Positions 20,619 through 54,324 of a stretch of DNA of 64,000 nucleotides are shown here, one piece after another (positions within the stretch are counted from its first letter, which is position 1; each line of letters begins with the position of its first letter). The notes beneath the pieces are model-generated. The model saw only the letters and a list, made by a program, of their open reading frames with translations, was not told the DNA's origin and ran no database searches. This DNA is from Litoreibacter meonggei (GTDB lineage Bacteria > Pseudomonadota > Alphaproteobacteria > Rhodobacterales > Rhodobacteraceae): assembly GCF_003663885.1 (NCBI RefSeq), contig NZ_RCCE01000005.1:62001-126000 (forward strand), given 5' to 3'. Position numbers and translations under genes: made by a program.

Positions 20619-20826
20619 TGCGGGCCTCGCGGGGGAATCGGTGTGTAGTGGGTCATTGTTTGAACCTAACCCTCATGAGTCAACGTAAAACCACTGCATA
20701 TGGCCGGCTACTCAGGGTTATCCCCAAGATGTTGCGAATTTCCGCTTAAGCCAGTGTGCCGCGAAATGCATGTGGGCTGTCGGAATCGACCTTGACCCGC
20801 ACAGCGCCCCTGACGCATTGTGCCCA

Positions 20827-21019
20827 CGCATGGTTCCCCGCGACGTGCAAAGCACAGTGGGGAAAAATGGGAATTCGGTAGGCGTGACCCAATTAGGGAC
20901 GCAACTCCGGAGCCGCCCCCGCGACTGTATGCGGTGAGCACCCTGCCAACTTAGCCACTGGAGCAATCTGGGAAGGCGGCAGGATGCATCGACCCGCGAG
21001 CCAGGAGACCAGCCATGCG
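20827..21019 (+). promoter_or_regulatory. Cobalamin riboswitch upstream of cbtB-cbtA-cobW
   Basis: The conserved parts appear in order: a P1 stem CGCATGG (20827) pairing with CCATGCG (21013), GGTTCCCC, a GGGAA-type segment, the CGGAGCC-CCCGCGACTGT core near 20910-20930, CCACTGG, GGGAAGGCGGC, and the B12 box GAGCCAGGAGACCAGCC at 20998. It lies 48 bases before the cbtB start. Bound adenosylcobalamin would be expected to repress cobalt uptake and the downstream cob genes. Confidence 0.93.
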
Positions 21020-21026
21020 CAATGAA

Positions 21027-21062
21027 ACCCCTCCCGTCGGGTGTGACGGGGCAAGGAGATTA
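21027..21062 (+). promoter_or_regulatory. Expression-platform hairpin and ribosome binding site of cbtB
   Basis: CCCGTC and GACGGG form a stem around GGGTGT, directly followed by GGGCAAGGAG, the cbtB Shine-Dalgarno. There is no T-run, so the cobalamin riboswitch probably acts on translation initiation rather than termination. The mechanism is inferred. Confidence 0.55.
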
Positions 21063-50549: not shown

Positions 50550-50827
50550 GGGCCACGGCGAGCATCACCCGAGGCGCGTTAACCTTTTGACGCCTTGCCC
50601 GACATAGCCCCGTTCAATGCCCGACAGAAAGCCGACGCATCGCCGACGCTTTGCAGACAGCACAAAACCCCTGTGCAGCCTTGGTTAACGCAGGTCTCAA
50701 CGGGTCGCGTCGCCACCGCTCGAAATCCACCGTTCACCATGTTAACCCTTGCCCCCATTCCGCCGTTCCCCTAAACGCGCCTCCTGAACCACAAGTCTCC
50801 GCTACCTTGTCAAAACGGAATTACATT

Positions 50828-51454
50828 ATGACACGTCTTCTCCCCGGCATCCTTGCCATGGCACTCACCGTCGTGGCGTCCAACATCCTCGTCCAGTTCC
50901 TGTTCGGCAACTGGCTGACATGGGGCGCCTTCACCTACCCCATCGCCTTTCTAGTGACCGATGTGATGAACCGCCTCTACGGCCCGCAAGCCGCGCGGCG
51001 CGTTGTTTTTACTGGCTTTTTCGTAGGCATCGCCTGCTCCCTCATCGGCTCGCAAGTCATGCTGGAATACGGACCCGCCGTCCCGCTGCGCATCGCCGTC
51101 GCGTCCGCCATCGCGTTCCTGACCGCACAACTTCTGGACGTGTCCATCTTCGACCGCCTGCGACAGGGCGTTTGGTGGAAAGCCCCGCTCGCCTCGACCC
51201 TCATCGGCTCTGTTGTGGACACCGCGCTGTTCTTCACCATCGCGTTTTCGGCCTCGGTTACGCTATTTGGCGCGGGAAATGATGCAGCAATTTCATGGGC
51301 TTGGGAGGGTGTTCCGCTCTTGGGCCAGGGCACTGTATTACCGCTTTGGGTGTCCCTGGCAATCGCCGATTGGGGCGTGAAACTGGCCATCGCTTTGATC
51401 GCTTTGGTCCCGTTTCGCCTGGTCGTTGCAAAACTTTCACACAAAACTGCGTAG
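50828..51454 (+). CDS. yhhQ: Queuosine precursor transporter (YhhQ/VUT family)
   Basis: A 208-residue membrane protein with about six helices. The N-terminal FPT-like MTRLLPGILAMALTVVASNI and the family motif YPIAFLVTDVMNRLYG are clear, with the later DVSIFDRLR. It imports preQ0/preQ1 for queuosine. ATG 50828 is chosen because the 59 upstream in-frame codons lie in non-coding-like DNA (50550-50827, no gene seen). No preQ1 riboswitch was recognised. Confidence 0.92.
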   Translation: MTRLLPGILAMALTVVASNILVQFLFGNWLTWGAFTYPIAFLVTDVMNRLYGPQAARRVVFTGFFVGIACSLIGSQVMLEYGPAVPLRIAVASAIAFLTAQLLDVSIFDRLRQGVWWKAPLASTLIGSVVDTALFFTIAFSASVTLFGAGNDAAISWAWEGVPLLGQGTVLPLWVSLAIADWGVKLAIALIALVPFRLVVAKLSHKTA

Positions 51455-51523
51455 AAAACTCTTGAGTTATCCACAAGATGTGGCACCTTTCCATTGAACA
51501 GCAACCATTGAAAGGAGGTGTCC

Positions 51524-51580
51524 ATGTCTAGAGTGATATTGGAGCAAGGTGTCAGGCAAGGTACGGAGGTGCGTGTCTAG
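51524..51580 (+). CDS. 18-residue mini-ORF with near-perfect Shine-Dalgarno
   Basis: ATG at 51524 encodes MSRVILEQGVRQGTEVRV and stops at TAG 51578. AAAGGAGGTG, fully complementary to the 16S rRNA 3' end, stands 3 bases before the ATG. I know no such peptide. It may be a leader peptide, a translated sRNA or a ribosome-binding decoy. Confidence 0.45.
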   Translation: MSRVILEQGVRQGTEVRV

Positions 51581-51650
51581 GGGCAGCCCCCTAACCCACA
51601 CCGAGGTATCGGTCACGGATCAACCTGACCCACCTCCATCAGATCTCGTC

Positions 51651-51685
51651 AAAGGGCGCCCGTGCTGTGGGCGCCCTTTGCTTTT
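51651..51685. terminator. Strong bidirectional intrinsic terminator
   Basis: AAAGGGCGCCC and GGGCGCCCTTT form an 11-bp perfect stem around GTGCTGT, followed by GCTTTT. It ends the mini-ORF transcript and, on the minus strand, lies directly past the ridA stop. Confidence 0.92.
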
Positions 51686-51689
51686 CAAA

Positions 51690-52031
51690 TCAGTCGTAGG
51701 CGGCGTCGACGATAATTTCGACCAGCAGTTCCGGCCGCGCCAACCGCGCCTCGCCACAAGCACGCGCAGGGGCGTGGCCTTCAGGCACCCACGCATTCCA
51801 AACCTCGTTGAGCCCTGCAAAATCAGACATATGCGCCAGCCAAACCGTGGCCCGCAGCATTTTTTCGCGTGAGGATCCCGCCAATGTCAGCATGGCATCT
51901 ACGCGGCGCAGGCATTCTTCGGTCTGCTCCTTGATGCCATTCCCTTCACCAACCTGACCGGTGATATAAGCCACGCCGTTGTGCTTCACGACCTTGCTCG
52001 ACCGCACACCTGTTTCAATTCTTTCGATCAT
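51690..52031 (-). CDS. RidA/YjgF/UK114 family protein
   Basis: A 113-residue protein of the RidA fold, which hydrolyses reactive enamines and imines. [15 protein letters not shown] and the C-terminal [22 protein letters not shown] are typical; the Arg in [10 protein letters not shown] is at the substrate-binding position but the residue pattern is closer to Rid subfamilies than to canonical RidA. The start is ATG 52031. It is alone between a terminator and the DEAD-box promoter region. Confidence 0.88.
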
Positions 52032-52218
52032 TTCAAATGTCTCCTGTTGCTGTCGAGAACCCTATTCGCTGTGCCCTTTGAACGCACCCCCTATACAACA
52101 ACGCCCAACCAGCGTATTGCCGCCCACTTGCGGTGCGCGCTCAGGGCACGGGCCGCGTTTGTGGCCAAATAGGGGTGGCTGCTTTTTCCTTTTTGCCCTG
52201 ATCAGAAAGACGTGACCC

Positions 52219-54324
52219 GTGATACAATCCATTCAAGACGCGCTGACCGAGCGCGGCTACACCGACCTGACTCCAGTTCAAACAGCAGTAACCGACGACG
52301 AATACGGCAACGCGGACCTTCTGGTCTCGGCGCAAACAGGTTCTGGCAAGACAGTGGCATTTGGCCTTGCCATTGCACCCACCTTGCTCGGTGACGAGCT
52401 GAAATTCGGCCGCGCCGCAGCACCACTTGCCCTCGTGATTGCCCCAACCCGCGAGCTGGCGTTGCAGGTCAAACGCGAGCTGTCGTGGCTATATGCCAAG
52501 GCTGGTGCTGTCGTGGCGTCCTGTGTCGGCGGCATGGACATGCGCGACGAGCGCCGTGCACTGGACCGTGGCGCGCATATCGTCGTCGCGACACCGGGCC
52601 GCTTGCGCGACCACATCCAACGCAGCTCGATAGATCTGAGCGAAGCGCGTGCTGTCGTTCTTGACGAAGCCGATGAAATGCTGGACCTCGGATTCCGCGA
52701 AGATCTGGAGTTCATCCTGTCCGAAGCGCCGGAAAGCCGCCGCACCTTGATGTTCTCGGCAACGGTTCCGGCGTCCATCGCCAAACTGGCGAAGAGCTAC
52801 CAGAAAGATGCGATCCGCGTTTCGACAAAAGCCGAGAACAGCCAACACTCTGACATTGAATACCGTGCGATGGCCGTAGCCCCGCGCGACGCAGAGAACA
52901 GCCTGATCAACGTACTGCGCTATTACGAAGCACCTACCGCGATCGTGTTCTGCAACACCCGCGCCATGGTGAACCGCCTGACGACCCGCTTCTCAAACCG
53001 CGGCTTCTCGGTCGTCGCTTTGTCCGGCGAGTTGAGCCAGAACGAACGCACCCACGCATTGCAATCCATGCGTGATGGCCGTGCGCGCGTTTGCGTGGCC
53101 ACCGACGTCGCGGCACGCGGGATCGACCTGCCCAATCTTGAGTTGGTCATCCACGCCGAACTGCCAAACAACCACGAGACCCTGTTGCACCGGTCTGGCC
53201 GGACGGGCCGTGCTGGTCGCAAAGGCGTCAGCGCGATGATCGTGCCTGCTAAAATGCGCCGCAAAGCCGAGCGCCTTTTGCAGGGCGCGAAGGTAAAGGC
53301 CGAATGGGGTGAAGCCCCATCTGCCGATGACGTAAACGCGCGGGATGAAGAACGCCTGTTCAACGATCCGGTTTGGGTCGATACGGCTACAGATAGTGAG
53401 GCCGGTCTGGTCGCAAAGCTGGTCGAGCGTTTTTCCCCTGAGCAAATCGCAACCGCCTACACCCGCCTGTTCCGCGAGCGCCAATCTGCACCAGAAGATC
53501 TGGCTCCATCAGGCTCCGACGCTCCGAAAGCCCGTCCAGCCTTTGGCGCAAGCGTTTGGTTCTCGATCTCGGTCGGGCGCAAGGACAATGCCGAGCCTCG
53601 GTGGTTGCTACCGGCCATGTGCCGCGCGGGCGATCTGACTAAAGACGACATTGGCGCAATCCGCATCCAGCAGAACGCAAGCTTTGTTGAAATCTTGAAG
53701 ACCAGCGAAGAAGGTTTCTTGAAGGCTCTCGGTGACGGCATGAAGTTGGAAGACGGCGCGATAGTAACCCGTCTTGATAAGGCACCCGACTTTACCTCAA
53801 TGCCACGTCCGGAGGGCGGCAAGAAGCCGTACGAGAAGAAATCGTATGACAAAAAACCTTACGAGAAAAAACCATACGATAAGAAGCCACATCGCGACAA
53901 CTACGACACCCCGCCCCGCCCCGCTGCAACCGAGCAGCCTAAATCGGGCAAAAGCATCAGTGACGCGCGTCCCGAGGGTGCAGTAACGGGCCACAAATCG
54001 CGCCCTGCCGGCGATAAGAAACCGTATGAAAAGAAAGGCGATAAGCCTGCCTTCGACAAGAAACCCGGCGGCAAGAAACCTTTCAACAAGACAGATGGTG
54101 ACAAACCATTCCGTAAATCTGAAGGTGACAAGCCTCGTTTCGACAAAAAGCCCAGCGGCAAAAAACCGTTCAACAAAGCGGATGGCGGCAAACCCGCAGG
54201 CAAACGCCCTGCTGCAAGCGCGAATGATACGTCCAAACGCTTCACGCCTCCGGGTGGCAAAGTGAAACCGCGCGTAAACAAGGGCGCTGGCGCCACACCA
54301 AAGCGCGGTAAAGGCAAGCCTTAA
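52219..54324 (+). CDS. DEAD-box RNA helicase with DbpA-type RNA-binding domain and Lys-rich tail
   Basis: A 701-residue helicase. Q-motif-like YTDLTPVQTAV, Walker A AQTGSGKT, DEAD in VVLDEADEMLDLGF, FSAT and HRSGRTGRAG are present, so the ATPase core is intact. A DbpA-type RRM follows at about 440-510 (VWFSISVGRKDNAEPRWLLP). The last ~180 residues are a low-complexity K/P/Y/D repeat tail (KKPYEKK units), which likely binds RNA non-specifically. Start GTG 52219. It probably acts in ribosome assembly or RNA turnover, like DeaD. Confidence 0.93.
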   Translation: MIQSIQDALTERGYTDLTPVQTAVTDDEYGNADLLVSAQTGSGKTVAFGLAIAPTLLGDELKFGRAAAPLALVIAPTRELALQVKRELSWLYAKAGAVVASCVGGMDMRDERRALDRGAHIVVATPGRLRDHIQRSSIDLSEARAVVLDEADEMLDLGFREDLEFILSEAPESRRTLMFSATVPASIAKLAKSYQKDAIRVSTKAENSQHSDIEYRAMAVAPRDAENSLINVLRYYEAPTAIVFCNTRAMVNRLTTRFSNRGFSVVALSGELSQNERTHALQSMRDGRARVCVATDVAARGIDLPNLELVIHAELPNNHETLLHRSGRTGRAGRKGVSAMIVPAKMRRKAERLLQGAKVKAEWGEAPSADDVNARDEERLFNDPVWVDTATDSEAGLVAKLVERFSPEQIATAYTRLFRERQSAPEDLAPSGSDAPKARPAFGASVWFSISVGRKDNAEPRWLLPAMCRAGDLTKDDIGAIRIQQNASFVEILKTSEEGFLKALGDGMKLEDGAIVTRLDKAPDFTSMPRPEGGKKPYEKKSYDKKPYEKKPYDKKPHRDNYDTPPRPAATEQPKSGKSISDARPEGAVTGHKSRPAGDKKPYEKKGDKPAFDKKPGGKKPFNKTDGDKPFRKSEGDKPRFDKKPSGKKPFNKADGGKPAGKRPAASANDTSKRFTPPGGKVKPRVNKGAGATPKRGKGKP

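Follow-up and report, generated by a model that had tools for sequence, protein, structure and literature searches.

The interval between a Vut_1-family transporter gene and a convergent ridA gene in Litoreibacter meonggei contains a conserved small RNA gene that, on sequence grounds, represents a diverged Rhodobacteraceae lineage within the CC2171 group of sRNAs (Rfam RF01867). The gene combines an extended Shine-Dalgarno (SD) sequence with a short open reading frame (ORF) of fixed length and an intrinsic terminator, and we lean, by a modest degree, toward the explanation that it is an autonomous gene for an sRNA of about 190 nt that works as a translated riboregulator. Our best reading is that ribosome traffic rather than the encoded peptide is what matters. 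The window analyzed here is a 64,000-nt stretch of the L. meonggei genome (assembly GCF_003663885.1, contig NZ_RCCE01000005.1, positions 62,001-126,000, forward strand), and all coordinates below refer to it.

Architecture of the locus

The element and its two neighbors comprise the following features:

50828-51454, + strand: Vut_1-family transporter gene (PF02592), upstream
51462-51467, + strand: predicted -35 box, TTGAGT
51484-51489, + strand: predicted -10 box, CACCTT
51496-51686, + strand: predicted transcript, about 190 nt
51510-51520, + strand: extended SD, GAAAGGAGGTG, whose 11 nt are the complement of the 3′ end of 16S rRNA, 3 nt before the ATG
51524-51580, + strand: 18-codon ORF from the ATG at 51524 through a TAG stop, MSRVILEQGVRQGTEVRV
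51565-51571, + strand: second GGAGGTG
51578-51593, + strand: short hairpin over the stop codon in the predicted fold, UAGGGG-CAGC-CCCCUA
51631-51637, + strand: internal anti-SD, CACCTCC, predicted to pair with the GGAGGTG of the SD
51650-51661/51669-51680, + strand: 12-bp stem of the intrinsic terminator, followed by the T-rich tail CTTTTC and ending near 51686
51690-52031, - strand: RidA-family gene (PF01042), convergent

The promoter was read from the sequence as TTGAGT-16-CACCTT (51462-51489), with a predicted -35 box that reads TTGACA in several other Rhodobacteraceae loci. The putative start at 51496 is placed by the -10 box together with the 5′ ends of covariance-model matches to the locus, of which that of RF01867 begins at 51502 and that of our own model R1 (described below) spans 51497-51689. 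An earlier sequence-only reading of this DNA had assigned the CACCTTTC segment at 51484-51491 to the RNA, as an upstream arm capable of pairing with the SD. The segment is present, but it overlaps the -10 box and is probably promoter rather than an RNA arm, and it is kept in only five of the 21 genomes of the genus, the window's own included. When folding begins upstream of the putative start, the SD is paired with CACCTTTC, and when it begins at that start, with CACCTCC; the folding z-score is -3.66 for 51440-51700 and -3.05 when calculated from the predicted start.

Other parts of that reading hold. The strong SD does lie 3 nt before an 18-codon ATG frame, the downstream CACCTCC that had been named as its partner is found in 20 of the 21 genomes of the genus, and the second GGAGGTG is found in 17. 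The hairpin over the stop codon retains GGGGCAG.CCC in all 21. A terminator does separate the unit from convergent ridA, with a stem one pair longer than the 11 bp originally proposed, and it may double as a terminator for ridA. The Vut_1 gene, which presumably encodes a queuosine-precursor or vitamin transporter, lies just upstream in 49 of the 143 loci that we assembled and is a conserved neighbor in Rhodobacteraceae. The ridA gene accompanies the element in near relatives only, namely in the window and four other loci of the genus.

A divergent branch of the CC2171 group

A DNA search recovered one copy of the element in each of the 21 genomes of its own genus and matched 28 of the 61 genomes in a set of relatives, and with many further occurrences in the class the proposed unit withstands comparison across relatives. 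The locus matches RF01867 with 25.9 bits (E = 8.4e-4), short of the family's gathering cut-off of 75 bits. At E values up to 0.001, the same model matched 21 of the 61 relatives, one of them above the cut-off; under the stricter filters of that search, it reached E 0.001 in none of the genus's 21 genomes, and among 14 control genomes it matched Caulobacter vibrioides only. Four of 18 scanned loci pass the cut-off (two from Methylobacterium and one each from Bosea and Phenylobacterium). The loci found with RF01867 carry GAAAGGAGGTG or a near form of it, a start codon 5-7 nt past AAAGGAGG, and a short ORF.

Pattern searches matched 26 of 190 genomes of the class, exactly once in each, and no control genome, with ORFs of 18-32 codons in 24 of the 26; 43 of 192 class genomes matched when two mismatches were allowed. 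In a sample of the phylum, the pattern was present in 21 of 41 alphaproteobacteria versus one of 109 other genomes, and that one match is mismatched inside the SD. The patterns miss the element's own genus, in which the SD-to-start spacing is shorter, and these counts are therefore lower bounds. A scan of named contigs returned at least 119 matching stretches, and the 80 that were examined derive from Rhodobacteraceae, Sphingomonadales, Caulobacterales, Bradyrhizobium, Methylobacterium, Mesorhizobium, Acetobacteraceae, and others.

Our own covariance model, R1, was constructed with 31 loci from other families, among them L087, L098, L138, and L145, all of which pass the RF01867 cut-off. R1 scores the window element at 27.5 bits, its sole match in the genome (E = 6e-5), so that the element is a homologue of CC2171, even if Rfam's criterion leaves it outside the family. 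In the phylum sample, R1 matched 20 of 31 alphaproteobacteria and, weakly, two of 89 others. The element resembles CC2171 in its 5′ block (CAAC..GAAAGGAGGTG..TGTC), in its similar length, and in its terminator; it differs in falling below the 75-bit cut-off and in bearing an anti-SD lock where CC2171 has a P1 stem, which is not kept here (see below). The usual plan across the class, as judged from these loci, appears to be a strong SD followed by an ORF of 14-32 codons and, in most cases, a terminator.

To our knowledge, Rfam describes no ORF for CC2171. The portions of the literature consulted contain no statement of its function. The Rfam 15 paper reports one added covarying pair for the family (PMC11701678), and PMC4117421 cites Landt 2008 for Caulobacter sRNAs. 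Transcription of a relative is indicated by a table of PMC5596092, which lists MH_s33 of Mesorhizobium huakuii, labelled CC2171, as an RNA-seq product, 215 nt long as we read its row.

Several observations accompany these searches. Relatives on plasmids were considered and rejected, as the lone plasmid match is confined to the terminator region. One genome (G048) has two copies, L032 and L051, with differing ORFs of 24 and 18 codons. Two metagenome-assembled genomes labelled Gemmatimonadota gave pattern matches (L084 at 7832 and L109 at 5050; R1 scores of 30.0 and 26.5 bits) that may reflect transfer, mis-binning, or chance. At L071, a 4.5S SRP RNA gene lies at 1188-1284, about 90 nt behind the element.

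Complementarity to 16S rRNA

Within the window, GAAAGGAGGTG occurs once against an expectation of 0.03, and AAGGAGGTG once against 0.33. The 16S 3′ end reads GGCTGGATCACCTCCTTTCT in the five of 21 genomes of the genus in which it was found, so that the 11 nt of GAAAGGAGGTG pair with it unbroken; in the window's own genome, a search with a 16S-end pattern and another with the Rfam SSU model both gave no match. Across 36 aligned Rhodobacteraceae loci, the AAAGGAGGTG columns are without any variation. A chance origin of the strong SD was rejected, given one match per matched genome and a nearly class-specific distribution.

Complementarity extends further in other lineages; among 23 loci from outside the genus whose discovery did not rely on GAAAGGAGGTGATCC as a pattern, 15 contain this exact 15-nt 16S complement. 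The predicted duplex with the 16S tail has an energy of -27.6 kcal/mol in the window and of -35.7 kcal/mol in L030. Such values would suit an RNA that acts as a decoy, titrating or parking 30S subunits through long 16S complementarity, but we regard this as very unlikely: the complement in the element's own genus is interrupted after 11 nt, a decoy would need neither the kept stop codon nor the kept ORF length, and the SD is predicted to be hidden in the full-length Rhodobacteraceae RNA.

A reading frame of fixed length

The loci linked to Vut were picked by that upstream gene, independently of the ORF, and thus provide an unbiased count of frame length. The ORF is exactly 18 codons long in all 48 uncut loci of this set, the 49th ending at a contig edge. 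The stop codons vary among TAG (31), TGA (12), and TAA (5) in the 48, and the start codons of the 49 are divided between GTG (26) and ATG (23). Starts are similarly mixed in the 23 loci outside the genus, for which the search left the start codon unfixed (GTG 12, ATG 10, TTG 1). Of the 143 loci that remain once duplicates are removed, many of which came from a pattern with a fixed start codon, 139 have ORFs of 14-32 codons; two are cut at contig ends, and two have longer ORFs of 39 and 57 codons (L055 and L058, the latter signal-peptide-like) and are probably not members.

This constancy bears on the simplest account of the element, that of a plain non-coding CC2171-type sRNA that acts in trans and whose SD and ORF are incidental. 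Rfam does list CC2171 as an sRNA gene, but a frame length that stays fixed despite three different stop codons and an exchange of ATG and GTG starts speaks against an incidental frame, and we give this account little credence.

Conservation of the encoded peptide is far less clear. Among 45 distinct ORFs (a set that includes one sphingomonad locus, L080), the synonymous share of codon differences is 0.181 versus 0.148 (sd 0.034) in column shuffles, a difference of less than one standard deviation. The other two frames give 0.122 and 0.125, and the higher value in the true frame leaves room for weak selection on the peptide. Variation is much the same at codon positions 1, 2, and 3 (0.91, 1.02, and 0.92 bits). 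The 45 ORFs were selected for a length of 18, so their absence of internal stops carries no evidential weight. In 13 sphingomonad-type ORFs, the synonymous share of 0.097 falls below the control of 0.156 (sd 0.047), and peptides from different orders are dissimilar in both sequence and length (14-32 aa).

The alternative that the locus is a peptide-coding small mRNA or a dual-function sRNA, with the 18-aa peptide as its product, would account for the strong SD, the kept start and stop codons, the excess of synonymous changes in the true frame over the other two, and an N-terminus (MSRVILERG) that is similar among many Rhodobacteraceae. Set against this are the agreement with shuffled columns, the even variation across codon positions, the low value in the sphingomonad-type ORFs, and the divergence between orders, and we judge a peptide product to be quite improbable. 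The riboregulator or dual-function RNA originally envisaged for this locus therefore stands as a conserved unit and is weakened as the source of a functional peptide, since clear selection at the peptide level is lacking and translation itself is favored. As we read these comparisons, selection would act on the translation of a fixed-length stretch more than on the peptide itself. A frame of fixed length whose peptide lacks clear selection suggests that the element may act through being translated, without a protein product.

A motif resembling GRGCARCCTC lies near the end of the ORF in five loci of other families (L064, L075, L079, L137, and L150) and is similar to GGGGCAGCCCC, which the element's own genus has at its stop codon.

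A predicted anti-SD lock in Rhodobacteraceae and a P1 stem in other families

Each of the seven GGAGGTG:CACCTCC pairs forms in 34-36 of the 36 Rhodobacteraceae loci of alignment A1, which was cut from 49 candidate rows to 36 by dropping L080, L094, L132, and 10 near-identical loci from the window's genus. Because the SD is nearly invariant, it shows no covariation, and covariation cannot serve as a test of its pairing with CACCTCC. In partition functions for 26 Rhodobacteraceae loci, mean SD pairing is 0.97 in the full-length RNA, 0.44 in the nascent RNA, and 0.65 when the 3′ part is shuffled, with the partner located in the part between the stop codon and the terminator (0.93). These predictions support the downstream arm that had been proposed as an SD partner. 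The start codon is predicted to be paired in all three states (0.84-0.87), and its pairing in the nascent RNA (0.87) counts against easy early loading of ribosomes.

The predicted behavior is different in the MSH and MSS groups, where the 3′ part leaves the SD unhidden and frees the start codon, whose pairing in the MSH group (32 loci) is 0.42 at full length versus 0.76 in the nascent RNA. Across all 95 loci, SD pairing is 0.78 in full-length RNAs versus 0.66 in nascent RNAs and 0.77 in the 3′-shuffled control (p = 0.55 against the shuffled control). A class-wide SD lock was rejected, as the full-length value over the 95 loci does not exceed that control. With the SD predicted to be closed in Rhodobacteraceae and not in MSH or MSS, the lock is a family-level trait.

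The 95-locus set excludes L002-L021, loci whose terminators are weak or misplaced, those lying at the ends of contigs, and four loci removed manually (L084, L094, L109, and L132). Pairing is stronger between arms of the same locus than between swapped arms (-17.5 versus -13.3 kcal/mol, p = 9e-18, a value inflated by the relatedness of the loci). The own partner arm is the best of 95 for two loci and within the top tenth for 39, and in 26 of the 95 loci the SD pairs with the remainder of the RNA more strongly than with shuffles (p up to 0.05). Terminator-like hairpins were found in 129 of 144 loci by a finder that is visibly wrong on some of them.

A different stem, termed P1, joins codons 2-5 with the bases just before the terminator in 31 loci from other families and does not close the SD. 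P1 was derived from duplex and pair scans and from the Rfam consensus. Together, P1 and the terminator have 91.5% paired cells and 30 cells in which both sides have changed, versus 7.2 in shuffles, with none of 500 shuffles as high. Slid versions of P1 score far lower, and in the pair scan P1 ranks second only to the terminator. RNAalifold did not predict P1 on alignment A2, whose 31 rows were hand-picked as alignable. In the window, P1 is not preserved, with four of its eight pairs unformed.

Neighboring genes and arfB

Neighbors of the element vary between loci, and a general role as leader of the downstream gene was rejected on these grounds. In the window, the next gene downstream is ridA, which converges on the element here and in four other genomes of the genus, an arrangement that supports the earlier view of an autonomous unit that leads no visible gene. 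In some lineages, however, the ribosome-rescue gene arfB sits behind the element. It follows in the same orientation, at a distance of up to 1000 nt, in 23 of the 143 loci, 20 of which also have Vut upstream. The arfB gene starts 10-32 nt past the terminator in nine of 26 measured loci (L014, L017, L026, L028, L039, L040, L096, L124, and L155), a gap too short for a promoter of its own, so that the arfB mRNA there probably crosses the element. This arrangement suggests read-through expression of arfB in those nine loci. Four of the 26 starts are 894-1389 nt away, one value (-54) is an artefact, and at least two of the underlying terminators are misplaced.

These gene orders raise the alternative that the element is a leader or attenuator in the 5′ part of the Rhodobacteraceae arfB mRNA, where the conditions of translation would set read-through. 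The short gaps and the shared Vut-element-arfB order favor it; the convergent ridA of the window and its four counterparts, together with the distant and misplaced values above, do not. In other families, ArfB was not found downstream of the element in the flanks examined, and in five of nine loci (ORFs picked manually) the element is followed by a gene on the opposite strand. An arfB leader is compatible with our preferred explanation, but the element's own lineage has other genes at this position, and as an account of the element we find it doubtful.

Proposed mechanism and relation to known systems

If the element is a translated riboregulator, as we favor, ribosomes would load on the SD while the RNA is being synthesized. 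Once the 3′ part has been made, CACCTCC would close the SD in Rhodobacteraceae, giving a ribosome-bound and a closed state, and the balance between the two would be set by ribosome availability. The state reached could then decide the stability of the RNA, its pairing with targets or, where arfB lies directly behind, read-through into arfB. A stronger form of this idea holds that the element is a widespread alphaproteobacterial sensor of ribosome supply, in which the SD pairs with 11-15 nt of 16S rRNA, the frame is selected for translation, and the ribosome flips the RNA between states. We consider this stronger form unlikely; were it true, the position of arfB behind the terminator in some Rhodobacteraceae would couple rescue capacity to the signal.

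A distal part of the same RNA can also lock the SD of a small ORF in the mRNAs of the type I toxins hok and aapA1. Those systems combine a hydrophobic toxic peptide with an antisense RNA, whereas the peptide encoded here looks hydrophilic on inspection and lacks clear conservation. An antisense RNA was sought by promoter scan alone, and the sole minus-strand promoter-like site within 50700-52500 lies at 52027-52056.

Among small RNAs of the class, rnTrpL/peTrpL of Sinorhizobium meliloti likewise carries a short ORF (14 aa), but it is described in PMC10117765 as a leaderless trp attenuator with a functional peptide. The same source lists S. meliloti SEP1 (23 aa, pI 4.18), whose pI is no obvious fit to the rhizobial peptides found here. 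Pos19 of Rhodobacter sphaeroides, a 219-nt small coding RNA from the same family, Rhodobacteraceae, differs in being named an RNA of the RpoE regulon of photo-oxidative stress (PMC5036791). The consulted parts of sRNA papers on Paracoccus denitrificans (PMC5107571) and Ruegeria pomeroyi (PMC4809877) yielded no link to the element.

About three-quarters of Caulobacter genes have no SD, according to PMC4117421, so that a near-maximal SD in a conserved RNA, together with a frame kept without clear peptide conservation, is both odd and testable. The results suggest that the sRNA family CC2171 is itself translated; they extend that family into Rhodobacteraceae, below the Rfam cut-off, and link a CC2171-type RNA to arfB in some genera. 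Ribosome-profiling data that already exist for relatives could test translation at once.

Two further features of the window were recorded. A cobalamin riboswitch aptamer at 20814-21031 on the + strand (116.8 bits) is the window's sole gathering-level Rfam match. Beyond ridA, at 52219-54324 on the + strand, lies a gene for a DEAD-box helicase with a DbpA-type RNA-binding domain, possibly an rRNA helicase.
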